Below, one piece after another: positions 951 to 62,083 of a stretch of 64,000 bases of DNA (within the stretch, counting starts at the first letter, position 1; every line of letters starts with the position of its first letter). This DNA comes from Halorhabdus utahensis DSM 12940 (GTDB lineage: Archaea > Halobacteriota > Halobacteria > Halobacteriales > Haloarculaceae): NCBI RefSeq assembly GCF_000023945.1, contig NC_013158.1, positions 2,108,001-2,172,000 of the forward strand. The letters run 5' to 3'. Made by a program: the position numbers and the translations under genes. Below the pieces are notes generated by a model. The model was not told the origin of the DNA. It made no database searches and worked only from the letters and a program-made list of their open reading frames with translations.

Positions 951-1037
951 ATGACCTCCTCAGCACAGGACTGGGCCGCCCGTGGAAAGCGACAATGGCC
1001 AGCAGGGAGTGCTACAGCAGCGGCTGGTGCACAATGA
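951..1037 (+). CDS. Possible 28-residue leader ORF overlapping the Bat regulator start
   Basis: ATG at 951 opens a 28-codon frame ending in TGA at 1035-1037, which overlaps the ATG of the next gene at 1034 (ATGA). The predicted transcript start lies only a few bases upstream of 951, so a leaderless ORF is plausible, with translation of the regulator coupled to it. The peptide (begins MTSSAQDW) matches nothing I recognise and could be chance. Confidence 0.25.
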   Translation: MTSSAQDWAARGKRQWPAGSATAAAGAQ

Positions 1038-2995
1038 GCGGGAATGATGCGCCCGTAGTGAGTGGGGACGCCATCCACACGCTGTTAGTCGACGATAGCG
1101 ACCGATGGGCCTCGGTCGCTGCGAAGCGAATCGAACGCGAGACAGACGCGGTCAGTGTCTCGGTCGCGAACGATGCCAACGAGGCGCTCGTACATCTCGC
1201 GGAGGCCGACCGAGTCGACTGTCTGCTCGTGGACTACATGATGCCGGGCATCACCGGCCTGGAGTTGCTCGAACGCGTTCGCGAGGATCGTCCCGATATT
1301 CCGTTCATCCTCATCACCAGCGAGGGAAACGAGGACGTGGCTGCCCGGGCGATCGACGCCGGTGTGACCGATTACGTCGTCAAAGAGCCGGCAACCGATC
1401 AAACCCCACTCCTCGCCGAGAAAATCGAGTCAGTTGTGCGCCAGCATCGCTTACAATGCCAACTTGAAGAAAGCGAACGGCGCTATCGATCCGTCGTCGA
1501 GGAGAGCCGTGACGCGATCTGTCTGCTCGAAGACGGTCGCGTGCAGTTTTGTAACGAGCACTTTGCCGAACTCACGGGTAGCGACTGTGCGTCCTGGATC
1601 GGCGAGGAGCTCGTCGAAGACGCAATTCACCCGGACGACCGGACCGCAGTGCGTGAGGCATTCGCGAACTGGGACGACGGGAGCGCCGAGCCGGAACTGC
1701 AAGAAGCGCGCCTTCGTCGTTCCGACGGATCGGTTCGGGCCTGTGAGTTCACTGGCCGGCGGATCACCGACGAGGGTGAGCCGACACTGCTCGTCTCGAT
1801 CCGGGACGTCAGCGAGCGACGACGCCACGAGCGTGAGCTACAGTGGGAGCGAGACCTCAATCGAACGGTCCAGGAAGCGCTGGTCGAATCGCGGACGCGA
1901 GACACATTGGAAGAAGACGTCGTTACCCATTTACACGAGTACGGGTATCCGGTCGCGTGGGTTGCCGAACGGGGGGCCGGTGGACTGTCCCCGCGAGCCG
2001 TCGCCGGGGATCAGGCATTCGTCGACGCCATCTCCTCGACGGCAGAAGCCGACGAGGTGCAGGGCGAACCCGCCACGTGGGCTGCCCAGTCGGGAGAGCC
2101 ACAGTTCGTCCAAGATGTCGCTGAGTTGTTTCCCTCGGCGTGGCGAGAAGTCGTCACAGACGACGGGTATCGGTCCGGCGGGGCGGTTCCGCTCGAACAC
2201 AACGACGTCCCCTACGGCGTATTGGCGGTCTATCATGACGAGCCGGACCATTTCGGCGAGACCGAGCGCCGGTTGCTCACGGAGCTCGGGGATACCGTCG
2301 CGTTCGGGATCCACAGCCTCGCGACGGAGAATAGCCTCGCTGCAGACCGGACTGTCACGGCCCGGTTTCGCGTCGGCGACGACGCGTACTATCTCGCGGC
2401 ACTCGCGATAGACGGGGCCTTTCGGGACTGCAAGCGGGTCACCGTCCAGGGGACTGTCCCGGACGACGAGGACGGGATCGTCCAGTATCTCCGTATCGCA
2501 GGCGCGACGGACGCGATCCAGGACGTGCTGGCTGCTCACCCCGATGTGACAGCAGTCCACGGGATCGACATTGAGCCACGCAGACTCCAGGTGACGGTCA
2601 GCGGTCCCAGTCCGGAAGCCCATCTCGCGACGCGCGGCGTCGTCGTCGATACCACGACCCTCGACCCCAACGGGGCCGTCGTCGAGGCACAGCTCCAGTC
2701 CCGGGAGACCGTCACGCCGACACTCGAGCGGTTAGAAGCGGCGTTCGACGACGTCTCCATACTCGCGATCGGTAACGAGGACACGGTGAGTGACACCGGC
2801 GGCCAGCTGCGAGCGGCCCGACTCACCGACAAGCAACGCCAGGCTCTCCGCGCGGCGTACCATCACGGGTACTTCGAACAGCCTCGCGGGGCCACCGCGG
2901 CGGAGATCGCCGAGACCCTGGGCGTTGCCCACTCGACGTTCCTCCAGCACCTCCACCGCGCCCAGCAGAAAGTCTTCGAAGCGCGCTTCGAGTGA
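1034..2995 (+). CDS. Receiver-PAS-GAF-Bat transcriptional regulator
   Basis: A 653-residue cytoplasmic regulator. Order: response-regulator receiver (about 14-135, phosphoacceptor Asp67 in LLVDYMMPG, Lys117), PAS domain (about 141-262), GAF domain (about 275-440), bacterio-opsin activator domain (about 445-585), and a C-terminal HTH_10 DNA-binding domain (about 595-650, LTDKQRQAL...GVAHSTFLQHL). Proteins of this kind receive a phosphoryl or redox/light signal and control transcription in haloarchaea; the founding member is Bat of Halobacterium. ATG 1034 is preferred over the upstream in-frame start at 995 because it begins MSGND and overlaps the leader ORF stop. The gene sits between a truncated PAS sensor and a giant surface-protein gene, with similar 18-bp inverted repeats upstream and downstream, suggesting autoregulation and perhaps control of the downstream gene. 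No kinase partner is visible. Confidence 0.9.
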   Translation: MSGNDAPVVSGDAIHTLLVDDSDRWASVAAKRIERETDAVSVSVANDANEALVHLAEADRVDCLLVDYMMPGITGLELLERVREDRPDIPFILITSEGNEDVAARAIDAGVTDYVVKEPATDQTPLLAEKIESVVRQHRLQCQLEESERRYRSVVEESRDAICLLEDGRVQFCNEHFAELTGSDCASWIGEELVEDAIHPDDRTAVREAFANWDDGSAEPELQEARLRRSDGSVRACEFTGRRITDEGEPTLLVSIRDVSERRRHERELQWERDLNRTVQEALVESRTRDTLEEDVVTHLHEYGYPVAWVAERGAGGLSPRAVAGDQAFVDAISSTAEADEVQGEPATWAAQSGEPQFVQDVAELFPSAWREVVTDDGYRSGGAVPLEHNDVPYGVLAVYHDEPDHFGETERRLLTELGDTVAFGIHSLATENSLAADRTVTARFRVGDDAYYLAALAIDGAFRDCKRVTVQGTVPDDEDGIVQYLRIAGATDAIQDVLAAHPDVTAVHGIDIEPRRLQVTVSGPSPEAHLATRGVVVDTTTLDPNGAVVEAQLQSRETVTPTLERLEAAFDDVSILAIGNEDTVSDTGGQLRAARLTDKQRQALRAAYHHGYFEQPRGATAAEIAETLGVAHSTFLQHLHRAQQKVFEARFE

Positions 2996-3534: not shown

Positions 3535-6500
3535 ATGAAACTCCGCGCGCTCGCGCTGTCAGTCCTGATGGTCATGTCGGTGGTTGCGGTCGGCGTCTCG
3601 TTCGGGCCGGGCGTCGCTACGGCGGCAGGCAATCAGACCGATGTCGCCGTGAGCGACCTGCCGGGGTCGGGGACGAGCAACGATCCCTACCAGATCAGCA
3701 GCGCCTCGGAGTTGCAGGCGATAGAGGACGATCTGGGGGCACACTACACGCTTGTCGCCGACGTCAACGCGTCGGACACGAGCGAGTGGAACGACGGGGC
3801 TGGCTTCGCCCCGATCGGTGACTCCGGCACGCCGTTCACCGGAACGTTCGACGGCAATGGCTACACGATTGCAGACCTAACGATCAATCGGTCGAGCGAG
3901 AACAACGTCGGCCTGTTCGGCTACACTGGAAGCAGCGCGGTGATCGCAAACGTCAGTATCGAAGACATTGACGTCACTGGATACCAATACGTGGGTGGCC
4001 TCGTCGGATACAGCTCTGGCACGATGGATTCATCGTACGCGACAGGCAACGTCTCCGCCACCGGAAATACAGTAGGTGGCCTCGTCGGATATGGCGAGGG
4101 CACGGTGGGTTCATCGTACGCGACAGGCAACGTCTCCGCCACCGGAAATACAGTGGGTGGCCTTATCGGTACCAACTTCGGCACGGTGGATTCATCGTAT
4201 GCGACGGGGACTGTCACCGGCCAAGATAGAGTGGGTGGCCTCATCGGGGCCAACCTCGGCACGGTGACCGACGCCTACTGGGACGTGAACACGACCGGCC
4301 AGTCCGACACGAACGATGGATATGATGACGCTGGCACCGGCCTCACGACGACCCAGCTCAAGGCCAACACCAGCCTCGATGGCTTCGACTTCACGAACAC
4401 CTGGGCTGTCAAAACTGGCGGCGAGGTGTCCTACCCCTACCTGCTGAACAACACCCAATCGCCCGCGCCCGGGCTGGAGAGTCTGTTCGCCGGCGGGAAC
4501 GGCACCGCAGCCAATCCCTACCAGATCGGGGACTGGAACGACCTCGACAGCGTGCGCAACGCGCTCGACGCCAACTTCACGCTCGTCGCCGACCTGAATT
4601 CCTCGACCGCAGGTTACGATTCGGTGGCGAGCCCGAGTGCAAACAACGACAAGGGCTTCGAGCCGATAGGATCATCTTCAACTCGCTTCAATGGCACATT
4701 TAACGGTAGTGGATACAAACTGGCCGACCTCGTGATCAATCGGCCAGACTCGAGGAATGTCAGTATCTTTGGAGTCGTTGGTTCATCAGGCACGGTTACA
4801 CTCACAGGAGTCGAAAACGCAAGTGTGACAGGAGGCACTTCTGTGGGAGGACTCGTCGGCTATAATGCGGGAATGGTGAACTTATCCTATACTACTGGGT
4901 CAGTCAGGGCTGACGATAGTGGGAATCAGTCTGGCAGTTCTGTTGGGGGACTCGTCGGTAATCTAACAGGTGATATTCGAAATGCATATTCGATGAGTGA
5001 TGTGACTGGTACTACCACTGTAGGTGGACTTGTAGGTAATATCTCGAAAAATTTTGGTACCAGGACGAAGTACACATATGCTACCGGAAAGGTTAGCAGT
5101 ACTGTAAATGCGACTGTGCGTGGTCACGCTGGCGGTGTCTTAGAATATGGCCAACAGCAAATAGCCTACTTTGACCAAAAAACGACCGGAGTGACTGAGC
5201 GAGTGGGCAATCCGTATCCAAGGCATACTGGTCAGCTCAAAGGATACGAGGGTCATAAAGAATTTTTCCATAAAGAATATGAAACGCAGGATGTTTTTGA
5301 CTCTCAGAATATTTGGACAATAAATAACTCCGACGGTGTCGTTTCGTATCCGTATCTACAGCAGAACCCCCAGACGGATATACCGGGGAAAGAGAAATTG
5401 TATTCGGCAGGAAATGGAACAAGTGGTCAGCCTTACGAAGTAGCTAACTGGACCCATCTCAACGATACACGTCAAAATCCTTCCGCGAACTTTACCCTAA
5501 CAGCGAACCTATCCAGAGAATCTGGAGGATATCGTAAAGAGGTAACGAATCCATCAGGTGGTTTCACGCCCATCAATGGATTCGGGAGTGGCGCCGGGAG
5601 TGAATTTAAAGGTAGGTTCGATGGCGCAGGAAATACGATAACTGATTTAGTTATTAACCGAAACTCAGACTTTGTGGGGTTATTCGGTATATCGTCCGGT
5701 ACAATCTCTAAAATTTCAATAAAGAACGTCTCTATTAGTGGTGATCGGGGCGTGGGAGGGGTCGTCGGTTTACAGGTTCATCCTGAATTAGGAGGGGCTA
5801 GGACAATCAAGAATGTTTCTGTTACAGGTGAGGTTAATGGAACATCGTTCGTAGGAGGAGTGGCAGGACAAATATATTTAGATACTGTCCGTGACACCAA
5901 TGCATCGGTGAACGTCACAGGAGAAACAGCAGTCGGTGGACTTGTCGGTTCTTCGGCAGCAGGTAAAATAACTGACTCGAATGTGGATGGGAGAGTTACC
6001 GGTGGAACGTATGTCGGTGGACTTGTTGGTGCTGTCGGCACTAATGGAAGATTCTTCAATAATAGAGGATCTATCCAGGCCTCGACAACGGATGTTTCGG
6101 TAACCGGCAATTCAAGTGTTGGCGGTATGGTTGGAGCGAATGGAGGTACATCTATCCCTGCGGTGTATTATGAGGGGAAAATCAATCATTTACCTCTGAA
6201 TGGAACTGAGATGCGCGCGTTAGAAGCAAGTGGATCCGTGCAGTCCCCGAGAAACGTAGGTGGTCATAAGATCGGCGGTCTCGTAGGGCAGCTCTATAGA
6301 GCTAATGTCACTCGCTCAAGTGCGACAGGAGAGGTCCAGGGTAGACTCAATTCTGGTGACGTGCAGGCGGGCAATGCCACTAAGATTGGTGGTCTCGTCG
6401 GTTACATGAGCGGGACGAATGCGGTCCTCAAACGCTCCGTTGCGGTGGGGAACGTCACTGGCTCGTCGAACGTCGGTGGCCTCGTCGGAGCTAACGGCAA

Positions 6501-9500
6501 CGCCTCCGCCTTCAAAAAGGGCGGAACGATCGAAAACGCGACCGCCAGCGGCACGGTCACCCTCGCTGGTGACAGTACCGATCCCGAAAATCTGGGCGGC
6601 CTCGTCGGCCAGATCTTCCAGGGCACCGTCACGCAGTCGAATGCCACCGGTAACGTGAACGCTGGCGACGCGACGAACGTCGGTGGCCTCGTCGGCTACA
6701 ATGACGCGACCGAGCCAAGTACGATCCGGGAGACGTACGCGACGGGCGCAGTGGACGGCGGCAACAACGTCGGCGGTCTCGTCGGCAAGAGCGTCAACGA
6801 CCTCGTGACCGAAAGCTACGCGATTGGGTCGGTCAACGGGTCGGCATCAGTTGGCGGCCTCGTCGGCAACAACACCGGTTCGATCGCCAAAGTGAACAAC
6901 TCCTATGCGGCCGGGTCGGTCACCGGGGATTCCGCTGGCGGTCTCGTCGGCACCATTGAGAACGGTGCGTCCGTGACTGACGCCTACTGGGACACCCAGA
7001 CGACTAATCAGTCCTCTTCAGCCGGCAACGCGACGGGGCTCACGACCAGCCAGCTGAAGGCCAACACCAGCCTCGCGTTCGACTTCGAAACGACGTGGGC
7101 TGTCAAAACTGGCGTCGAGAAATCCTACCCCTACCTGCTGAAAAACACGCAATCGCCCGCGCCCGGACTGGAGAGTCTGTTCCCCGGCGGCGATGGCACC
7201 GAGGCCAGCCCCTACCAGATCGCAGACTGGAACGACCTCGACAACGTGCGCGACGCGCTCGACGCCAACTACACGCTCGTCGCCGACCTCGACGAGAACA
7301 CGGCGGGCTACGATTCGGTGGCGAGCGCCTCGGCAAACAACGACAAAGGCTTTGACCCATTCGGTGACAGAGGGGCCAGTTTCAGTGGGACGTTCGACGG
7401 ACAGGACCACACCATTGCGAACCTGACGATCAATCGGACGGATAGGGACTACGTCGCTCTCTTCGGCCGCACTGGCGGCGGGATGATTGTAAACGTCAGT
7501 CTGGAAGACGTCGAGGTCACCGGCAACAGGCAGGTGGGTAGCCTCGTCGGATCCCACGGAGGTGGTGTGGTAAGCGCGTCCTCCGCTACCGGCACTGTCG
7601 ACGGTTCCACGTCGGTTGGGGGCCTCGTCGGAGACAGTTACGGACGAGTGAGCAACTCGACTGCCGCGGTATCCGTCACTGGTTCTGAGCAGGTGGGTGG
7701 CCTCGTCGGTCTGAGTTCAGGCTACTCCACATCCAAGGGAATCGTGAACACGTCGCACGCAACTGGGACTGTCGACGGTACCTCCTATGTAGGTGGGCTT
7801 GTCGGACGTAACTACGATGGTGGGGGAGTGCCGACTGTGAAGACATCCTCCGCCACGGGGTCGGTTAACGGCTCCGACTACGTTGGTGGCCTCATCGGAG
7901 GAAATAGTGGCGAAACGAAGACCTCGAACGCCAGCGGGACTGTCACCGGAAGCGAAAGCGTCGGCGGTCTCGTCGGTGCGAACGGCGTCGAATCGGATGG
8001 AACCTCCGGCGGCAGCATTGAAGCCTCGAATGCCAGCGGGGAGGTAGCCCTCAACGCTAACGTAAGGGCGGGAGACAAGATGGGCGGTCTCGTCGGCCAG
8101 CTCTACGGTGGTTCGGTCACTCGTTCCAACGCAACTGGCGACATTAGCGGTGGCTTCCAATTCCAGGGGAAGAATATTGGTGGTCTCGTTGGCTATGCGG
8201 ATGGCACGACCAGTACCGCGACAATCACTGACTCCTATGCTGTTGGCGATGCCCTCGGAGACAAGCGCGTTGGCGGCCTCGTCGGGACGGCCATACAAAC
8301 AGAAATCAACCGCACCTATGCGACTGGCGGAGCTACTGGGACGCAATCGAATATTGGCGGACTCGTCGGCAATGCGACTGGAACGAACACTCGCGTATCC
8401 AACTCGTACGCTGTTGGCTCGGTCACTGGCAACTCACCAGTCGGCGGTCTCATCGGCACCAGTGAGGACGGTGCGTCCGTGACCGACGCCTACTGGGACC
8501 TGAACACGACTGGCCAGGACACCTCGGCCGGCGGCACCGGTCTCACGACGAGCGAACTGAAGGGCAACGAGAGTCTGGCCGGCTTTACCTTCACGAACAC
8601 GTGGGGTGTCCGAACTGGCGGCGAGGTGTCCTACCCCTACCTGCTGAACACCACCCAATCGCCCGCGCCCGGACTGGAGAGCCTGTTCGCCGGTGGGAGC
8701 GGAACCGAAGCCGACCCGTATGAACTCTCCTCACCGGACACGTTGGGGAGTGTCAGTTCGGCACCGAACGCCAGCTACGAACTCACGGCCGACCTGGACA
8801 TGGCGGGCGTCAGCCACGACCCGATCGGAACGGCCGCGACGCCGTTCAACGGCTCGTTTGACGGCAACGGCTACACGATCGCGAACCTGACCATCGATCG
8901 GCCCGGCGAAGACAACGTCGGTCTCTTCGGCCACGTCGCGACCAACGGAACGGTGGCGAACGTCACGATCGAGAACGCGACTGTGACCGGCGACAGCAAC
9001 GTCGGTGGCCTCGTCGGAGAAACCACCGGGACGATAACGGGCTCCTCGGTGACCGGCCGCATCACCGGCAACGAGAGCGTCGGCGGTCTCGCCGGGGCGA
9101 ACGGCGTCGAATCGGACGACACCGCAGGTGGCACGATCGAATCCTCGACTGCCAGCGCCACCGTGACTGTCAACGCGAGCGCGACAGCCCCGACGCAGTT
9201 CGGCGGCCTCGTCGGCCAGAACTACCAGGGCACGGTCACTACCTCGAACGCCACGGGTGACGTGCAGGCGGGCGACGCCACCAGCGTCGGCGGCCTCGTC
9301 GGGTACACCAGCGGAACGGGCGCGAGTGCGGTCGTCAACGTTTCGTATGCGACCGGGAACGTCACCGGCAGCGAGCGCGTCGGCGGGATTGCCGGGACCA
9401 CGATCAATGCCACGATCACCCAGACGTACGCGACAGGCGGCGTCAACGGCTCAACGGACCTTGGCGGCCTCGTCGGGAACGTCACCGGACGGAACAGTGA

Positions 9501-12500
9501 GGTAGTCTACGCCTACGCAGTCGGTCCCGTCACCGGGAACAGCAGCGTCGGCGGCCTCGTTGGGACGACGACGGACAATCCCAGGGTCGCGAACTCATAC
9601 TGGGATGTCGAGACGACCGGCCAGGACAACTCGGCTGGCCTCCGGGAGTTCAGTGGCAGGACCACCGCAGAGATGACGGGACCCTCCGTTCGAGGGTCTC
9701 TCGGTCTCTTCGACTTCGATGCAACGTGGGATGTGTTGATATCGAACGGAACAGTCTCCTACCCCTCCCTGCGGGCAAACCCACAGGAACCCGCCCCAGG
9801 GAAACGAACACTATACGCCGATGGTAACGGGACAGCAGACAATCCTTACGAGATCGAAAACTGGTATCACCTGGATGCCACCCGGGAGAACCCCCGGGCG
9901 AACTACACGCTCGTGGCCGACCTCGACCCGGAGACGGCCGGCTACGACTCGGTGGCTGCTCCCTCGGCCAACGGCGGACACGGGTTCGACCCGATCGGAG
10001 CGGATCGCCGTGGATTCGAAGGCGAATTCGACGGCGAGGGTCACACCATCACGAATCTCACGATCGACCGCCCCGGCGAGGACACTGTCGGGCTGTTCGC
10101 CATTGTTCCGGCCGGGCAGTACGCCGATGGAACGGTCAAGAACCTTCGGCTCTCGAACGTCGATATTACCGGGGCCAGATCCGTCGGTGGCGTGGCTGGA
10201 TTCCACGGGCAAGCCGCGAAGACGATCGCGAACGTCTCGGTCTCGGGGACCGTCGACGGCACCGAAAACGTCGGTGGTGTCGTCGGGACGAACCTGGGGC
10301 TGGTCGAAAACCTGACCGCGACGGCGACCGTCAACGGCTCGACGAACGTCGGCGGTCTCGCCGGTTCGAACAGGGGTATCGTGACCGAGTCCGACGCGGC
10401 CGGGACCGTCAGCGGATCGACGAACGTTGGCGGCCTCGTCGGGGCCAACGAACTCGGCACGGTACGGGACTCGAACGCGATGGGCGACGTTACCGGCGAC
10501 TCCACCGTCGGCGGACTCCTCGGGACAAATAACGGTGGTCTGGTGACCGGGAGCTATGGCACCGGAAACGTGACCGTATCCGGCGATAACGCCGGTGGCC
10601 TCATCGGCTGGAACACCGATTATTCAGACTGGAGTGGTGTGCACAATGCGACGGTCACGAACACCTACGCCACGGGTGACGTTTCTGCCAAAGGCGGGAA
10701 CGTCGGTGGTCTCCTCGGCAACAACACCGTCACCGATGGTGGCCAGAGCGTGATCAACAACTCCTACGCTGTCGGTGCGGTCTCGGGATACGCGAGTCTC
10801 GGCGGTCTCGTCGGGACGAACAACGCGACAGTCGAAAACGCCTACTGGGACACCGAGACGACCGGTCTGTCAGACTCCGACGGCGGTATCGGCCTCACGA
10901 CGAGCCAACTGAAGGCCAACACCAGTCTCGCGTTCGACTTCGGAACGACGTGGGATGTCGAGACTGGCAGCGAAGTGTCCTATCCTTACCTGCTGAACAA
11001 CACGCAATCGCCCGCGCCCGGGCTGGAAACGATCGACACAACCTCACCGTCCATCTCGACGTTCAGCGTCACCAACCCGTCCGACCAGGACGTCCAGGTG
11101 AGCTTCGACACTTCAGAGCAACTCTCGACGATCGAAGTGACAATCTCGGGTGCTGAGTCGGCCACCCTCATGACGGGTGAATTCAGCGAGACCGACAATA
11201 GCGACGGTACCTACACCTACACCGCGACCCACGCAGTCAGTACCGACGGCGACTACACCGCGACATTGACCGCCGCAGCGGATGCCGCCGGCAACGACGG
11301 GGCAAGCGGCGAGTCCGGGAACGTGACGATCGACGTGACGCCACCGACGATCGACTCATTCGCTGTCTCGAATCCCTCGGGCCAGGACGTTCAGGTAGCC
11401 TTCAACAGCACAGAACAACTCTCGACGGTCGAAGTCTCGATCACTGGTGCCGAAAGCACGACATTGACGAGTGGCGACTTCACGGCAACTGCCAGCGACG
11501 GCACCTACACCTACGAAGCCATCCACGCCGGCAATAGCGATGGCACGTACATTGCCACGCTGGAAACGGCGACCGACGACGCCGGCAACGATGGCGCGAG
11601 CAACCAGTCCGGCAGTGTCGAGGTCGACACCGCCGACGATGGCGGTTCGGGCGGTGGTCCCGGCGCAGGCGACATGTCTGCCCCGTCGATCTCCGGGTTC
11701 GAGGTTACCAACCAGTCGGGACAGAACGTGCACATCACCTTCGTCGCAAACGAACAAGTGTCGACGATTTCGGTGGCGATCACCGGTGCTGAATCGGCCA
11801 CGCTCGCGACGAGCGACTTCAGCGAGACCGACAATGGCGACGGTACCTACAGTTACACCGCGACTTACGCCGGTAGTACCGACGGCACGTACACTGCAAC
11901 GTTGACAAGAGCTGAAGACCACGCCGGCAACGACGGTGCGAGCGGTCAGTCCGGCAGCGTGACGGTCGACGTGACTCAGCCGTCGATTTCCGGATTCGAG
12001 GTCACCAACCCGTCCGAACAGGCTGTTCGCGTGGCCTTCGACGCAGACGAACAACTCGCCACCGTCGAAGTGACAATCTCGGGTGCTGAGAACACCACGC
12101 TCGCGACGAGTGACTTCAGCAAAATCGACAACGGCGACAGCACCTACACCTACGAAGCTACCTACGAAGGCAGTACCGACGGCAATTACACTGCCACACT
12201 GAAAACGGCGACTGACGATCTCGGCAACGACGGTGCGAACGCTCAGTCCGAGACGGTCATCGTGGATACGACAGCCCCGTCGATCTCCGGGTTCGCAGCC
12301 ACGAACCCATCCGGACAGGACGTTCGAGTCACATTCGATGCCGACGAACAGCTATCGACGCTTCAGGTGGCGATCACCGGCCCGGAATCGGCCACGCTCG
12401 CGACGAGCGACTTCAGCGAGACCGACAATGGCGACGGTACCTACACCTACGAAGCTACCTACGCCGGCAGCACCGATGGCACGTACACCGCCGCTCTCTC

Positions 12501-13536
12501 GACCGCTGCTGACGACGCCGACAACGACGGTGCCAGTGGGCAATCCGACACCGTGACGATCGACGTGACTGCACCGTCGATCTCCGGGTTCGCAGCCACC
12601 AACCCGTCCGGACAGGATGTCCGGATCGCATTCGACGCGTCCGAGCAACTCTCGACGATCGATGTGTCGATCACCGGTGCGGAGTCGGCCACGCTGACAG
12701 AGAGTGACGTCACGGAAACGGCTAACGGTGACGATACCTACACCTACGAAGCTACCTACGCCGGCAGCACCGATGGCACCTACGAAGTCACGCTGGAGAC
12801 AGCAACCGATGACACAGACAACGACGGCGCGAGTGGTCAGTCCGCTACCGTACAGGTCGATACCGACGAAGACGACGGTGACACCACCACTGATGAAGAC
12901 GACGGTGACACCACCACTGACGAAGACGACGGTGACACCGCCACTGATGAAGACGACGGTGACACCACTGACGCAGAGCGGAAACCCAGCGGCGAAACCA
13001 ATCCGGGCGAGACGTGGGTCGAGCCGTCCGAACTGCAGGAGGTCAGAATCGTCGACGTCCGGCTGGAAACGGCACCCGCAAACAGTGTGAAGACGACGAA
13101 CATCGTCACGCTCGAAAACCCGTTCCAGACTGAGCGGTCTGTCGACGTGCGATTCGTCATCGACGGCGACGTCGTCGGCGAACGCGAGGTCTCGGTGCCG
13201 GCTGAACAACGGATCAATGCGACCCAAAGTATGATCGTCGAAGAATCGGGAACCCACGAGGTTGCGGCCAACGTCGCGACGAAAGGCGACGACGGCGGCA
13301 CCGTCCGGACGTTTGACTTCATGATCGGCACGCTCGAACTCGACGACAACGGCGACGAGATCGCCAGCTCGAGTGCCGACCCGCCAGGACAGCGAGATAC
13401 AGACGAACTGACGGCTGAGGACGGCACTGACGATGACGGCGGCAGCGGCGTTAGCCCACTTGTCGTGGTCGGTATCATTGTCCTCGTGGCCCTGGTTCTC
13501 GTAGGTGTCTACGTCCGGCGACGAAGCGGCTCCTGA
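3535..13536 (+). CDS. Giant GLUG/Ig-repeat cell-surface protein with C-terminal anchor
   Basis: A 3333-residue exported protein. An N-terminal signal peptide (about 1-31, hydrophobic, ending AxA: GVATAAG) is followed by six modules (about 32-2500), each made of many GLUG motifs (pattern VGGLVG) and closed by a YWD...YPYLL...PAPGLESLF segment. Next come six Ig-like/cadherin-like repeats of about 100 residues (about 2501-3110, each beginning like PSISGFxxTNPSGQ), a DEDDGDTTT acidic linker, a CARDB-like beta domain (about 3165-3285), and one membrane helix followed by RRRSGS. GLUG repeats occur in bacterial and archaeal surface proteins, often adhesins. NxS/T sequons are abundant. The hydrophobic tail lacks a PGF-type sorting motif, so it should be a plain transmembrane anchor. 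Start chosen from the signal peptide and a GGAGGTG ribosome site. Roughly 4670-6410 is visibly AT-richer than the rest. Adhesion or substrate contact is inferred. Confidence 0.9.
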   Translation: MKLRALALSVLMVMSVVAVGVSFGPGVATAAGNQTDVAVSDLPGSGTSNDPYQISSASELQAIEDDLGAHYTLVADVNASDTSEWNDGAGFAPIGDSGTPFTGTFDGNGYTIADLTINRSSENNVGLFGYTGSSAVIANVSIEDIDVTGYQYVGGLVGYSSGTMDSSYATGNVSATGNTVGGLVGYGEGTVGSSYATGNVSATGNTVGGLIGTNFGTVDSSYATGTVTGQDRVGGLIGANLGTVTDAYWDVNTTGQSDTNDGYDDAGTGLTTTQLKANTSLDGFDFTNTWAVKTGGEVSYPYLLNNTQSPAPGLESLFAGGNGTAANPYQIGDWNDLDSVRNALDANFTLVADLNSSTAGYDSVASPSANNDKGFEPIGSSSTRFNGTFNGSGYKLADLVINRPDSRNVSIFGVVGSSGTVTLTGVENASVTGGTSVGGLVGYNAGMVNLSYTTGSVRADDSGNQSGSSVGGLVGNLTGDIRNAYSMSDVTGTTTVGGLVGNISKNFGTRTKYTYATGKVSSTVNATVRGHAGGVLEYGQQQIAYFDQKTTGVTERVGNPYPRHTGQLKGYEGHKEFFHKEYETQDVFDSQNIWTINNSDGVVSYPYLQQNPQTDIPGKEKLYSAGNGTSGQPYEVANWTHLNDTRQNPSANFTLTANLSRESGGYRKEVTNPSGGFTPINGFGSGAGSEFKGRFDGAGNTITDLVINRNSDFVGLFGISSGTISKISIKNVSISGDRGVGGVVGLQVHPELGGARTIKNVSVTGEVNGTSFVGGVAGQIYLDTVRDTNASVNVTGETAVGGLVGSSAAGKITDSNVDGRVTGGTYVGGLVGAVGTNGRFFNNRGSIQASTTDVSVTGNSSVGGMVGANGGTSIPAVYYEGKINHLPLNGTEMRALEASGSVQSPRNVGGHKIGGLVGQLYRANVTRSSATGEVQGRLNSGDVQAGNATKIGGLVGYMSGTNAVLKRSVAVGNVTGSSNVGGLVGANGNASAFKKGGTIENATASGTVTLAGDSTDPENLGGLVGQIFQGTVTQSNATGNVNAGDATNVGGLVGYNDATEPSTIRETYATGAVDGGNNVGGLVGKSVNDLVTESYAIGSVNGSASVGGLVGNNTGSIAKVNNSYAAGSVTGDSAGGLVGTIENGASVTDAYWDTQTTNQSSSAGNATGLTTSQLKANTSLAFDFETTWAVKTGVEKSYPYLLKNTQSPAPGLESLFPGGDGTEASPYQIADWNDLDNVRDALDANYTLVADLDENTAGYDSVASASANNDKGFDPFGDRGASFSGTFDGQDHTIANLTINRTDRDYVALFGRTGGGMIVNVSLEDVEVTGNRQVGSLVGSHGGGVVSASSATGTVDGSTSVGGLVGDSYGRVSNSTAAVSVTGSEQVGGLVGLSSGYSTSKGIVNTSHATGTVDGTSYVGGLVGRNYDGGGVPTVKTSSATGSVNGSDYVGGLIGGNSGETKTSNASGTVTGSESVGGLVGANGVESDGTSGGSIEASNASGEVALNANVRAGDKMGGLVGQLYGGSVTRSNATGDISGGFQFQGKNIGGLVGYADGTTSTATITDSYAVGDALGDKRVGGLVGTAIQTEINRTYATGGATGTQSNIGGLVGNATGTNTRVSNSYAVGSVTGNSPVGGLIGTSEDGASVTDAYWDLNTTGQDTSAGGTGLTTSELKGNESLAGFTFTNTWGVRTGGEVSYPYLLNTTQSPAPGLESLFAGGSGTEADPYELSSPDTLGSVSSAPNASYELTADLDMAGVSHDPIGTAATPFNGSFDGNGYTIANLTIDRPGEDNVGLFGHVATNGTVANVTIENATVTGDSNVGGLVGETTGTITGSSVTGRITGNESVGGLAGANGVESDDTAGGTIESSTASATVTVNASATAPTQFGGLVGQNYQGTVTTSNATGDVQAGDATSVGGLVGYTSGTGASAVVNVSYATGNVTGSERVGGIAGTTINATITQTYATGGVNGSTDLGGLVGNVTGRNSEVVYAYAVGPVTGNSSVGGLVGTTTDNPRVANSYWDVETTGQDNSAGLREFSGRTTAEMTGPSVRGSLGLFDFDATWDVLISNGTVSYPSLRANPQEPAPGKRTLYADGNGTADNPYEIENWYHLDATRENPRANYTLVADLDPETAGYDSVAAPSANGGHGFDPIGADRRGFEGEFDGEGHTITNLTIDRPGEDTVGLFAIVPAGQYADGTVKNLRLSNVDITGARSVGGVAGFHGQAAKTIANVSVSGTVDGTENVGGVVGTNLGLVENLTATATVNGSTNVGGLAGSNRGIVTESDAAGTVSGSTNVGGLVGANELGTVRDSNAMGDVTGDSTVGGLLGTNNGGLVTGSYGTGNVTVSGDNAGGLIGWNTDYSDWSGVHNATVTNTYATGDVSAKGGNVGGLLGNNTVTDGGQSVINNSYAVGAVSGYASLGGLVGTNNATVENAYWDTETTGLSDSDGGIGLTTSQLKANTSLAFDFGTTWDVETGSEVSYPYLLNNTQSPAPGLETIDTTSPSISTFSVTNPSDQDVQVSFDTSEQLSTIEVTISGAESATLMTGEFSETDNSDGTYTYTATHAVSTDGDYTATLTAAADAAGNDGASGESGNVTIDVTPPTIDSFAVSNPSGQDVQVAFNSTEQLSTVEVSITGAESTTLTSGDFTATASDGTYTYEAIHAGNSDGTYIATLETATDDAGNDGASNQSGSVEVDTADDGGSGGGPGAGDMSAPSISGFEVTNQSGQNVHITFVANEQVSTISVAITGAESATLATSDFSETDNGDGTYSYTATYAGSTDGTYTATLTRAEDHAGNDGASGQSGSVTVDVTQPSISGFEVTNPSEQAVRVAFDADEQLATVEVTISGAENTTLATSDFSKIDNGDSTYTYEATYEGSTDGNYTATLKTATDDLGNDGANAQSETVIVDTTAPSISGFAATNPSGQDVRVTFDADEQLSTLQVAITGPESATLATSDFSETDNGDGTYTYEATYAGSTDGTYTAALSTAADDADNDGASGQSDTVTIDVTAPSISGFAATNPSGQDVRIAFDASEQLSTIDVSITGAESATLTESDVTETANGDDTYTYEATYAGSTDGTYEVTLETATDDTDNDGASGQSATVQVDTDEDDGDTTTDEDDGDTTTDEDDGDTATDEDDGDTTDAERKPSGETNPGETWVEPSELQEVRIVDVRLETAPANSVKTTNIVTLENPFQTERSVDVRFVIDGDVVGEREVSVPAEQRINATQSMIVEESGTHEVAANVATKGDDGGTVRTFDFMIGTLELDDNGDEIASSSADPPGQRDTDELTAEDGTDDDGGSGVSPLVVVGIIVLVALVLVGVYVRRRSGS
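3660..11035 (+). repeat. Six long GLUG-repeat modules within the giant gene
   Basis: Module ends are marked by a recurring segment at about 4429, 5347, 7126, 8629, 9760 and 10978 (consensus YPYLLNNTQSPAPGLES, with variants NPQTDIPGKEK and NPQEPAPGKRT at the second and fifth). Module lengths vary from about 0.8 to 1.8 kb because the number of internal GLUG motifs differs. The arrangement is typical of duplication and unequal recombination. Confidence 0.8.
11035..12861 (+). repeat. Six Ig-like repeats of about 300 bp
   Basis: Repeats begin near 11035, 11341, 11683, 11974, 12277 and 12571. Shared cores are EQLSTIEVxITGAESATL, SDFSETDNGDGTYTY and STDGTYTATL. A glycine-rich linker (DDGGSGGGPGAG) interrupts the run before repeat three. 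The last repeats are close in sequence, implying recent amplification. Confidence 0.8.
12865..12969 (+). repeat. 27-bp minisatellite encoding an acidic DEDDGDTTT linker
   Basis: Four units starting at 12865, 12892, 12919 and 12946, the last one codon short, encode DEDDGDTTT-type repeats. Unit length is a multiple of three, so copy-number change would keep the frame. It links the Ig-like repeats to the membrane-proximal domain. Confidence 0.85.
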
Positions 13537-18127: not shown

Positions 18128-18243
18128 GAGAGGATTGGCTGATAATTCTCACCGCTATGTTTCTCTTCTTCGATCTACGGGTCTTCTGACTCAATTTCTG
18201 GAAATCCACGCTGTCCGTGATGGGTGAAACGTCATTCACAATG

Positions 18244-18252
18244 TTTTATATG
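18244..18252 (+). promoter_or_regulatory. TATA box, leaderless promoter
   Basis: TTTTATATG lies 25-30 bases before the tandem ATGATG at 18272-18277, as expected for a leaderless archaeal transcript. Confidence 0.65.
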
Positions 18253-18274
18253 GGGTATGTGTAAATGGAATATG

Positions 18275-18975
18275 ATGAGTGGGAGCGACGACGAGTTTGA
18301 TCCCGAAGTAGATCTCCTCCGTCGGTATCACGACATGCTCAATACGCAGATGAATTCCATCAACGAAATCGATAACAAAGCCTCGAATACAGCGAAGTTA
18401 ATCGGAATTCTCTTTAGTCTCACCCTTACAGCCGTTTCTCTCGGAGTAACGACGGAGATTGTTCAGCTTTCAGATACGTCAATACCGTTTTTCGTGATGC
18501 TTGCTCTTTCACTCGTGACGTTTCTTCTTGCCCTTCTGTTAAGTATCACTACCTATCTGAGTAGCACGATCATCCATGGACCCACAGCCTCGGTCGGAAG
18601 CTACATGGCGAATTACCAGGTAGAGAGCCAGCAATATATCGATATTATGTTGCGAACCTACAGTAAGGCAGTCCGTGAAAACAAAACGGTGATTTTCAAG
18701 AATGCGAGCCGATTCAAGAAAGCGCTTGCCGTGCTGATGGCTGGATTGATCTACCTGCTCACGTCTGGAATCCTCCTTGTCGTTTCTGTTCTCGAAATCG
18801 GTTCGATTTTCAGTGGCCGATTCTGGCAGTATTTGGGGCCGCTGGCGGGATTGTCGCGTATTATATCGGCGTCAAAGACTACTTAACAATTGAAGCCGAA
18901 AATCTTGTCAAGAACAATGGCAACAGAGAATCAGAAACAGAACGCAAAGCCGAGGGGGGATCTGACGGAAGCTGA
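18275..18975 (+). pseudogene. Four-helix membrane protein gene with a one-base frameshift
   Basis: The open frame from ATG 18275 (or 18272) has an acidic N-terminus, a helix with INEIDNKASNTAKLIG, and three membrane helices (about 18391-18450, 18484-18550, 18730-18795), then stops at 18886 after an unconvincing tail. Adding one T to the TTTT at 18807-18810 opens another frame: a fourth helix (WPILAVFGAAGGIVAYYIGV) and a charged tail ending at TGA 18973-18975. The corrected protein would have about 233 residues and four membrane helices. The helix-D-KA-helix layout recalls small membrane effectors of SLATT/Pycsar type, but only by pattern. Base composition is clearly lower in GC than its neighbours, suggesting transfer. 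Either a real lesion or a sequencing error. Confidence 0.6.
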
Positions 18976-37349: not shown

Positions 37350-37757
37350 CGGTGGCTGCGGGGAGTAAGCCCCCTTCTGTTGTCGGCATTCGGCTACGCG
37401 TCCGCGTCGTGTCCAGGCTACCAGTCACGCGGACTTGCACCGGCGAGGATTCGCCGTTCCAGCCGTTCTCGCCCGTCGACGCGCCCTCGGTGGGTTGGGC
37501 TTCCCGTCGTTTGTTCGCCCGGCCGACCGGCCGCCTTGCGGCGGGGATCGACCGCACTTTGTCACTCAGGGGTCACACACCTCATCGGTCGGGGCGAGTG
37601 GTCTCGTTTCTGTTCCAGCGCCGGCGGTCTCCCGCCCCGGGCTTGCGCCCGGTCGCCTGCCCGGACGGTGGGGGGACTTTCCTCATGCCCGTAAGCAGCG
37701 TTCCGACGCTGTCGGAACGCACGTCCCGGGCACGGGAGCCGGGCTCCCGCTGCCACT
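37350..37757 (-). ncRNA. rnpB: RNase P RNA
   Basis: Minus strand, about 408 bases. Conserved region I GAGGAAAGTCC is at 37684-37670; the 3' conserved ACAGAAGGGGGCTTACT is at 37380-37364; the L15-like GGTGCAAGTCC, which pairs with the tRNA CCA end, is near 37444-37430. The 5' end GTGGCAGCGGG can pair with the 3' end CCCGCAGCCAC with one A-A mismatch, giving helix P1. A local stem CGGGAGCC/GGCTCCCG near the 5' end fits P3. It is the catalytic RNA of the tRNA 5'-end processing enzyme. Exact ends are estimates. Confidence 0.9.
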
Positions 37758-59116: not shown

Positions 59117-62083
59117 ATGGACGTTGCGGACATTCCGGGGGTACCCGCGTGGTTGCCCGAGCACCTGCAGGCGGAGGGCATCGAGGAGTTGTATCCACCA
59201 CAGGCCGAGGCCGTCGAAGGTGGCGTCACCGACGGGGCGAACCTCGTCGCGAGCGTGCCCACGGCCAGCGGCAAGACACTCATCGCCGAACTCGCGATGT
59301 TCTCGGCGATCACCGACGGGGAAGGCGATGAGGCCGGCGACGACGAAGGTGTAGACCACGCGGCGGAAACTGACGGCACCGCGCTCTACATCGTGCCGCT
59401 CCGGGCGCTCGCCAGCGAGAAACGCACCGAGTTCGAACAGTTTGAGGCCTACGGCCTGGAGGTCGGCGTCTCGACAGGTAACTACGAGAGCGACGGCGGA
59501 TGGCTCGGTGACAAGGATGTCGTGGTCGCCACCAGCGAGAAGGTCGATTCCCTCGTGCGAAACGATGCGCCATGGATCGACGACCTCGATTGCGTCGTGG
59601 CCGACGAGGTCCACCTCGTCGACGACGGCGAGCGCGGCCCGACCCTGGAGGTCACGCTCGCCAAACTTCGAAAGCGCAATCCGGATCTCCAGACGGTCGC
59701 GCTGTCGGCGACGATCGGCAACGCCGACGCGCTCGCCGAGTGGCTGGACGCCGAACTCGTCGACTCGACCTGGCGGCCCATCGACCTCAAAAAGGGCGTC
59801 CACTACGGGCAGGCGTTGCAATTTGAAGACGGCAGCCAGCAAGAACTCCGAGTCCACGATAATGAGAAGGCAACTGCTGCCATCCTCAGGGACACTTTAT
59901 CTAGTGAAATTCAGGATCTAGCACAGGTACCCAAAAATAAGAGAAATCTGATAAAAGAAACTCTTGATGGAACTTTTGACCCCCAAGTGGAATATCAACA
60001 GTCAATAAAGGAAGAGATACAAAATCTGTGTATCGATCCTCTTCAATATGATATTGGTGAAGAGTTTGGAATATTTGGCATCGCGATAACGCACGATATT
60101 GGCTCTGCAGAAGATATTGCTGTTCGACTTTCGGAAGATACGACGGCTTTCGTCTCATCCTCTGAGAGAGACACACTCAACGAGGTTGCAAAAGAAGTCC
60201 AGGCCGCAGGCAATTCACGCTCTGTACAAAAGTTATCTGAACTAATTCCGACTGGGGTTGGATTCTATCACGGAAAATTACCGGAAAAGTGTCGTCGTCG
60301 AGTCAAAGAATTAGCTAACGACGGGTTGTTAAAATCTATAGTCTCGACCACTTCGCTTGATCTTGATAACGTTGATAACACCAACACATTCCATGAGGGT
60401 GGCTCTTTGCTTGTATTTGTCAACTCTCGGAAAAACGCCGAAGCCGCGGCTCGACGGCTCGCATCAACGACCGATCCCCTCCTTTCCGGCGACGAACGCG
60501 ACCGTCTCGCCGAGATCGCGGCGGAGATCCGCGATGTCAGCGACACCGAGACCAGCGACGATCTGGCCGACGCTGTCGAGGGTGGCGCGGCCTTCCATCA
60601 CGCCGGGCTCTCCCGGGAACACCGCTCGCTCGTCGAGGAGGCGTTCCAGGAGCGTCTCGTCAAAGTGATTTCGGCGACCCCGACCCTGGCGGCGGGCGTC
60701 AACACCCCCTCCCGGCGGGTCGTCGTCCGGGACTGGCGGCGCTACGACGGGACGGCGGGCGGGATGCAGCCCCTCTCGGTGCTGGAGGTCCATCAGATGA
60801 TGGGGCGGGCGGGCCGACCCGGGCTGGACCCCTACGGCGAGGCGCTGCTGCTGGCGAGCAGCCACGACGAACTCGACGAACTGTTCGAGCGCTACGTCTG
60901 GGCCGACCCCGAACCGGTCCAGTCGAAACTCGCCGCCGAACCCGCGCTCCGGACGCACATCCTCTCGACGGTCGCCTCCGGGTTCGCCAACTCCCGGGCG
61001 GGCTTGCTCGACTTTTTGGAGGCCACGCTCTATGCCAGCCAGACGACCGAGGGCGGCCGCCTGGAGACGGTCGTCGACGAGGTGATCGCCTACCTCGAGG
61101 CCAACGACTTCCTCACGCGCGAAGACGATCCGGACGGCACCCTTCGGGCCACATCCATCGGCCAGACTGTCTCGCGACTCTACCTCGACCCGATGAGCGC
61201 GGCGGAGATGCTCGACGGCTTGCGCGAGTTCGAGCGGACGGCCGGGGAGCGATCGACTCGATCACCCCACGACGGGGAGCGGGACGACGAGCCGCCGGGC
61301 TTCGAGCCGGCCAGCGAACTGGTGTCGGACGCGGGCGACGACATCGGTGAGTCCGACGACACTGACGACACCCCCCAGCCGACCGCGATGGGGCTGTACC
61401 ACCTCGTCTCCCGGACGCCGGACATGTACGAACTCTACCTCCGGTCGGGTGACGAGGAGGAGTACTCCATGGAAGCCTACGAGCGCGAAGCGGAGTTCCT
61501 CGGCGCGATGCCCAGCGAGTTCGAGGAGGGTCGCTTCGAGGACTGGCTGTCGGCGCTGAAGACCGCCCGACTCCTCGAAGACTGGGCCGACGAGGTCGAG
61601 GAGGGGACGATCACCGAGCGCTACGGCGTCGGGCCGGGCGACATCCGCGGGAAGGTCGAGACGGCGTCCTGGCTGCTCAACGCCGCCGAGCGACTCGCCG
61701 GTGAAGTTGGCCTGGACGTGACGCCGGCGATCAGGGAGGCTCGCGTGCGCGTCGAACACGGCGTCCGGGCGGAACTGGTCGACCTCGCGGGCGTCCGCGG
61801 CGTCGGTCGGAAACGTGCCCGCCGACTGTTCGCCGCCGGCATCGAGTCTCGCGAGGACCTCCGAGAGGCCGACAAGGCGGTCGTGTTAGGGGCGCTTCGT
61901 GGCCGGGAGAAGACCGCTGAAAACATCCTGACGAACGCCGGCCATCGCGACCCCTCGATGGATGGGGTAACGCCGGCGGCGGGGAGTGACGAACTCACAG
62001 CCGCGAACGGCGCTGGATCCGGAGACCGGGACGGTGCCGAAGACGAGCAACCGGCCGATCAGTCCAGCCTGGGTGATTTCTGA
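59117..62083 (+). CDS. hel308: Hel308-type DNA helicase with internal insertion
   Basis: A 988-residue Ski2-like superfamily 2 helicase that unwinds 3'-tailed forks in repair and recombination. Walker A is VPTASGKT (47-54), the DEVH box is at 163-166, motif [11 protein letters not shown] is about 195-202. An extra segment (about 261-427; bases 59897-60397) then interrupts the fold. Motif [20 protein letters not shown] is at 428-445, motif [17 protein letters not shown] at 516-531, motif [12 protein letters not shown] at 561-570, and an HhH ([14 protein letters not shown]) near the end. The C-terminus QSSLGDF (982-988) resembles a PCNA-binding motif. Typical length is about 700-830; the insertion explains the excess. 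The AT-rich tract is about 59860-60440. Confidence 0.9.
59860..60440 (+). other. AT-rich insertion tract inside hel308
   Basis: Base composition drops sharply here while the reading frame is intact. Residues 261-427 have no place in standard Hel308. Within them, residues about 347-425 align with the host's own residues 457-535 (both run ERDxL...E, then G/A-x-F-Y/H-H-x-xL, then a motif V-like stretch), so the insert carries a degenerate second copy of the RecA2 segment. No intein motifs are seen. Confidence 0.65.

Follow-up and report, generated by a model that had tools for sequence, protein, structure and literature searches.

The question raised by this locus is how a single open reading frame, encoding a giant surface protein in Halorhabdus utahensis DSM 12940, comes to carry an internal stretch of markedly lower GC content that is entered and left abruptly. 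Archaeal surfaces are the point of contact for viruses, symbionts and mating partners, and to our knowledge within-gene variation of such surfaces has been little described beyond a few species. The window analysed here is a stretch of 64,000 nucleotides (positions 2,108,001 to 2,172,000 of NC_013158.1). The host genome comprises one contig of 3,116,795 bases, and the genome report for strain AX-2T gives a single replicon with 62.9% GC (PMC3035240).

The gene lies at positions 3535–13536 on the forward strand and encodes 3333 amino acids, as defined by the open reading frame, its translation and profiles from Pfam and NCBIfam. A score of 254.3 bits against the Pfam Glug profile PF07581 (cut-off 20.5) places the product among the GLUG-motif proteins; the motif is common to the whole gene and to the low-GC stretch, and membership in PF07581 says nothing on composition or mosaic structure. 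Residues 2–30 match the haloarchaeal signal peptide profile TIGR04207 (halo_sig_pep) with 35.2 bits (cut-off 24.6), in keeping with a haloarchaeal surface glycoprotein. Read by eye, the protein has some six GLUG modules along with Ig-like and acidic repeats, and a hydrophobic segment lies at its C-terminus. Each module, likewise by eye, has its own N-terminal domain (..PYxI..W..L..F.PIG..F.G.FDG..), followed by a series of GLUG repeats and by a linker (YWD..TTGQ..SYPYLLNNTQSPAPG). The whole gene additionally resembles the N-terminal region of the M26 IgA1 proteases (PF05342; PDB codes: 3n6z and 6xja) with 42.4 bits (cut-off 27.7), spread over the gene with no single significant stretch; in difference to those proteases, the catalytic M26 domain is absent among the four Pfam families detected.

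The GC content per 300-nt window falls from about 0.63 to 0.43–0.51 between approximately positions 4650 and 6300, and is 0.61 again by 6301–6600. Likelihood segmentation of third codon positions delimits a block at positions 4666–6393 on the forward strand (576 codons), with GC3 of 0.40 versus 0.76 in the remainder of the gene and a log-likelihood ratio of 175.6, versus 21.3 as the top value among 2000 codon shuffles. The first-pass annotation had proposed an AT-rich block at 4670–6410, which agrees with the segmentation to within about 20 nt, and the run that it pointed out near 5047 is present (AAAAATTTTGG). The sliding-window profile that it called for is clearly not flat across the gene, and the abrupt return to GC-rich codons that it described is borne out. 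It had, however, equated the block with the second and third modules. The block instead starts within the module 2 N-terminal domain and ends partway through the GLUG repeats of module 3, so that it spans the end of one module and the start of the next. Frame and GLUG pattern are kept throughout, as had also been claimed: the coding frame contains no stop, versus 16 to 45 in the other five frames, and nine GLUG motif matches lie within the block. Simple decay of the block was rejected on the strength of the retained open frame and motifs.

Such a composition is rare in this genome. Only 4 of 605 genes called in a 780-kb sample have a GC3 of 0.40 or lower, and no window as GC-poor as the block was found among 3660 overlapping windows of 1741 nt from a 400-kb sample. 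The difference in codon choice noted at first pass holds with the amino acids fixed: under the normal usage of the genome the block stands at -2.26 bits per codon, versus -1.48 and -1.52 for the GLUG parts on either side. Its codon cost under the usage of the genome's own low-GC3 genes is 1.80 bits per codon, a model built on crude gene calls of which some of the low-GC3 ones are probably in the wrong frame. The charge of the encoded protein shifts as well. The block is almost neutral (D+E 7.1%, K+R 7.7%), with a net charge per 100 residues of +0.5 versus -9.8 and -5.8 in the GLUG sequence before and after it. Its windows are the least acidic among 755 sampled from 45 haloarchaeal GLUG ORFs, in which the best value from another gene is -2.2, and its charge is unmatched in 205 GLUG windows from 21 ORFs of further genomes in the phylum, which reach -2.9 at most. 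Segmentation, charge and codon likelihood all set the block apart, and it combines the atypical composition and sharp edges looked for in an imported segment.

Both edges of the block lie within repeat motifs common to the modules. A GC-rich direct-repeat tract at positions 4401–4670 (forward strand) ends at the 5' edge and has a second copy at 7095–7364 (forward strand), in the linker between modules 3 and 4, 2694 nt or 898 codons downstream. The identity of the two copies is 0.67–0.93; when followed in 30-nt steps at a shift of 2694 nt, it amounts to 77–93% over 4401–4580 and 67–80% up to 4670, and drops to 43% in the next step. The tract consists of a module linker and the beginning of the following module, so that, at a resolution of 30 nt, homology to module 4 runs out at the 5' edge of the block. 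Near the 3' edge, an exact 18-nt repeat at 6355–6372 (forward strand), about 20 nt inside the block, recurs at 9256–9273 (forward strand) in module 5. The similarity to module 5 around this edge is short, with 30-nt steps of 0.83, 0.67 and then 0.43, and the longest exact word within the block is 14 nt. The protein near this edge has an extra, partially duplicated repeat (GEVQGRLNS / GDVQAGNAT) that is missing from the other modules with which it was aligned, three in a first alignment and four in a second; in the first, module 4 has a small insertion nearby, and in the second the register of the GLUG repeats is ambiguous.

The locus could be compared with its counterpart in a second genome of the genus (G001). 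A regulator gene at positions 995–2995 (forward strand), identified by Pfam as carrying response regulator, PAS, GAF, BAT and HTH_10 domains, serves to anchor the orthologous locus. It adjoins a giant GLUG gene both here and in G001; a copy in a third genome of the genus, G003, is 63% identical. The G001 regulator is 86–87% identical, and the adjoining GLUG gene encodes 2341 residues with a like signal peptide and tail, an additional N-terminal part and modules that differ widely. The GC content of this orthologue is even, at about 0.57–0.70, and no low-GC block is seen in it, an observation from one orthologue whose module set is widely different. In the search of the genus, the G003 genome returned no match to the block.

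Searches with the block returned matches in 4 of 7 genomes of the genus, 47 of 146 of the family, 111 of 392 of the order and 66 of 392 of the phylum, in sets that overlap and include the block's own genome. Beyond the block itself, the top matches among the 392 order genomes were to another stretch of its own gene (46% identity), to G001 (41%) and to a genome from another family, G357 (42%). The top match in the 392-genome phylum set was G052, of the same family, with 41%; G001 is absent among the genomes listed there with a match. Short stretches outside the giant gene reach about 54% identity among the matches listed for the family and order sets. The first-pass annotation had expected best hits in a different lineage from those of the flanking modules. 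This expectation failed, as a control stretch from module 4 also has its best outside matches in G052 and G001, and stronger ones (50% and 57%, respectively). For twelve 120-residue windows lying wholly in the block, the best match elsewhere scored 46–109 bits (median 65) versus 74–182 in the GLUG flanks; these ranges overlap, and the database was gathered with the block as the query, which should favour the block.

No donor of the block was found among the genus, family, order and phylum genome sets, plasmids and phages. The phage search gave no match, pattern scans of genome contigs and viral contigs gave no relative, and the plasmid search gave seven weak records, the top one being from Methanohalobium evestigatum (NC_014254.1), with 31% identity over 100% of the block. 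The block is thus diverged from everything sampled and assignable to no donor. The block has no sequence match to solved structures at E 0.01, and a predicted model of its module 3 part, with a pLDDT of 59.5, supports no more than regularly spaced strands. A fold search with this low-confidence model returned no match at E 0.001 or better, and the best, weak match was once more to the N-terminal region of the M26 IgA1 proteases (E 3.5e-3).

An internal change in GC3 is seen in other GLUG genes, too. Among 45 haloarchaeal GLUG ORFs scanned, the giant gene had the strongest switch, at 139.7, with other strong ones at 59–79 (e.g. L132, L128, L111, L028 and L127); the maximum among 116 genes of at least 500 residues sampled from the genome itself was 50.6, a rough comparison, as these statistics grow with length. 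In a different setting, one GLUG gene with an open frame of 3646 codons (G353 C1:658001-674000) lies, together with its flanks, at about 47% GC as a whole low-GC island, in a genome with 69–70% GC in 9 of 10 sampled stretches. Over 40 haloarchaeal ORFs, windows with GLUG motifs were lower in GC3 than GLUG-free windows in 31, with a median difference of 0.03. Less conserved GLUG windows also have lower GC3 (pooled rho 0.25, or 0.21 without the giant gene; positive in 26 of 36 ORFs).

A second family of GLUG proteins, of about 780 residues, was assembled from 20 stretches fetched by ORF size from the match lists. Eleven of these yielded 12 ORFs, which with three ORFs from the genus make 15; left out were six stretches with no ORF by the motif filter, one with a masked run and two of other architecture, together with four shorter ORFs from stretches that were kept. 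The genus members, presumed orthologues from the H. utahensis genome and two congeners (L029, L026 and L028), have a GLUG part in the first 300 or so codons with a GC3 of 0.31–0.38, versus 0.72–0.77 in the rest. All 15 members, which represent three families of the order, have a lower GC3 in the GLUG part than in the rest, by 0.04 to 0.41 (sign test p = 6e-5). The test overstates the case, because the members are related and because long genes often start out slightly lower in GC3: this was so in 81 of 116 long genes of the genome, with a mean difference of -0.03 and a single gene at -0.30 or below. This first-part effect does not account for how large the shift is in the six members with a difference of at least 0.30. 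The GC3 of the GLUG part correlates with that of the rest (r = 0.86). Since low GC recurs in a second family, where it goes along with the GC3 of the remaining gene, it does not by itself prove one recent import.

In the nine closest pairs of this family, identity is 0.44–0.59 in the GLUG part versus 0.71–0.85 in the rest; across the full set of 105 pairs the two parts have equal means (0.39 and 0.38), and the contrast is confined to close pairs. Three of the five profiled pairs have an abrupt change, for instance from 0.38 to 0.78 between L029 and L026 and from 0.50 to 0.94 between tandem paralogues in G195, and L192/L197 and L196/L197 a more gradual one. The variable GLUG part in close pairs is flanked by a conserved C-terminal part and, in four of the five pairs, by conserved upstream DNA. 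The neighbouring paralogues of G195 (C2:16001-23500), of about 770 residues, are 85% identical in the C-terminal part and 49% in the GLUG part, an arrangement that looks like a variable head on a constant stalk. At fourfold sites of shared residues, the variable part was more diverged at p < 0.05 in seven of eight pairs (L029/L028 p = 0.22), the eight having been picked among the close ones of the 105, with three other close pairs omitted. For six of the tested pairs it comes within 0.12 of the saturation value; in the other two, L196/L197 and L197/L199, it is clearly unsaturated. Such a contrast would not be expected from protein selection alone and should arise from the exchange of older, divergent alleles, although a local rise in mutation rate, slips in alignment register or the setting of boundaries after the profiles were seen could partly imitate it.

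Elsewhere in the window, a second sharp low-GC block lies at positions 59819–60466, inside a gene for a Hel308 helicase of 988 residues. It covers 216 codons with a GC3 of 0.38 versus 0.85, and its log-likelihood ratio of 89.8 was obtained at finer settings than the scan of the genome's own genes. The insert, of about 170 residues, holds a diverged (about 30%) partial copy of the adjoining helicase C region; it has matches in 126 of 142 family genomes, all of them weak (up to 38 bits) apart from the insert itself, and most of the listed open frames are of about 750–850 codons. Another low-GC stretch holds an ORF of 220 residues (18224–18886) that resembles a membrane protein by eye and has no Pfam or NCBIfam match. 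An archaeal RNase P RNA is found at 37354–37754 on the reverse strand, with 140 bits.

Taken together, we consider the block somewhat more probably than otherwise (roughly 0.55) to be an exchanged, variable GLUG cassette from a lower-GC pool. Exchange is favoured by the sharp GC3 switch, the position of the edges, the low match scores, the shift in charge, the blockless gene of G001 and the synonymous divergence in the second family. According to this proposal, DNA of lower GC content for the end of one diverged GLUG module and the start of another would have joined the giant gene in frame, through recombination at motifs that the modules share, with the 5' junction in the PIG motif of the N-terminal domain and the 3' junction in a GLUG repeat. 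The type of repeat scaffold would be retained, so that the surface protein may stay intact while a part of it changes. We infer the direction of transfer, the donor pool, the exposure of the patch at the cell surface and its benefit, which could conceivably lie in an altered surface as met by viruses or partner cells. Against exchange stand the absent donor, the unmatched charge, the covariation in GC between GLUG parts and the remainder of their genes, and the equal mean identity of the two parts over the 105 pairs. Of the import from a lower-GC relative put forward at first pass, recombination accordingly gains backing from the edges in shared motifs and from the second family, but the relative does not, the top matches being the gene itself, G001 of the same genus and G052 of the same family.

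The main rival is a drift towards AT in place, in which fast-evolving GLUG segments under relaxed or diversifying selection turn low in GC and less acidic with no import, either through AT-biased mutation or because GC-biased gene conversion is missing. It accounts naturally for the lower GC3 of the GLUG part in every member of the ~780-residue family and its correlation with the rest, for the lower GLUG windows in 31 of 40 ORFs and the association with low conservation, and for the similar GC3 of the block (0.40), the GLUG parts of the three genus members (0.31–0.38) and the helicase insert (0.38). Drift would not be expected to stop abruptly at both edges inside motifs shared by modules, to spare GLUG flanks in the same gene that keep a GC3 of 0.58–0.88 per 60 codons, or to leave synonymous sites more diverged in the variable part of seven of eight pairs; nor do the frame and motifs of the block have any sign of decay. 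On balance we regard it as rather unlikely. A reversed history, in which modules 2 and 3, with their low GC, came first and gene conversion from module 4 then pasted the GC-rich 5' tract over them, would fit the end of the 67–93% identical tract at the 5' edge with its 2694-nt spacing from the module 3/4 linker. It leaves unexplained both the 3' edge, with its short similarity to module 5, and the evenly GC-rich orthologue in G001, and seems improbable. Least probable of all is that a halophilic methanogen, such as Methanohalobium or a relative, passed the block on directly. The full-length plasmid match at 31% identity speaks for it, as does a GC3 of 0.15–0.45 in 18 of 21 non-haloarchaeal GLUG ORFs, and non-haloarchaeal genomes of the phylum score 0.79–1.07 of the best haloarchaeal match in windows lying wholly in the block. 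The same ratio is about 0.5–1.11 in the GLUG flanks, and Methanohalobium reaches up to 60% identity to the GC-rich flanks, so the block is not specially close to these organisms; all 205 sampled non-haloarchaeal windows are, moreover, acidic.

The resemblance between the Methanohalobium plasmid GLUG protein (L162) and the GC-rich modules of the giant gene, seen in 120-residue windows, in itself suggests that GLUG surface genes may have been exchanged between haloarchaea and halophilic methanogens. More speculatively, and with slightly less likelihood than the drift described above, the GLUG segments of haloarchaea could form a shared, hypervariable pool of lower-GC cassettes, swapped in frame across genes and species, possibly including halophilic methanogens, with the anchoring part inherited normally; the whole would then act as a switching surface scaffold.

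Among the open-licence titles listed for the terms searched, none concerned the giant gene or AT-rich GLUG parts, and a search for GLUG with haloarchaea led only to papers on Haloquadratum walsbyi. Two systems from that species bear on the exchange of a cassette, in opposite directions. Cell-wall islands of H. walsbyi are reported to differ through homologous recombination, one of the events being of about 250 bp and affecting the S-layer protein (PMC4535781), which lends exchange in the giant gene some further backing. Genomic island 1 resembles the present case in being composed of recombining haloarchaeal surface genes, with conserved and variable clusters; it differs in that the changes concern whole genes or islands, apart from the one ~250 bp event, within one species (PMC4535781), whereas here a 1.7-kb composition block lies in one gene of one genome. 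Halomucin of H. walsbyi is likewise a giant secreted repeat protein with conserved ends, a variable middle and a composition unlike its genome, and has matches to GLUG-domain proteins among others. In contrast to our block it is reported to rise above its low-GC genome in GC content, and that study ascribes its variation to repeat-mediated length change and not to lateral transfer (PMC3119063), in line with drift in place.

For the biology of haloarchaeal GLUG proteins, the finding warns against relying on low GC by itself as a sign of one recent import in surface genes of this kind. At the same time, the patch in the giant gene and the second family together would provide a concrete and testable case of cassette exchange below the level of the gene.
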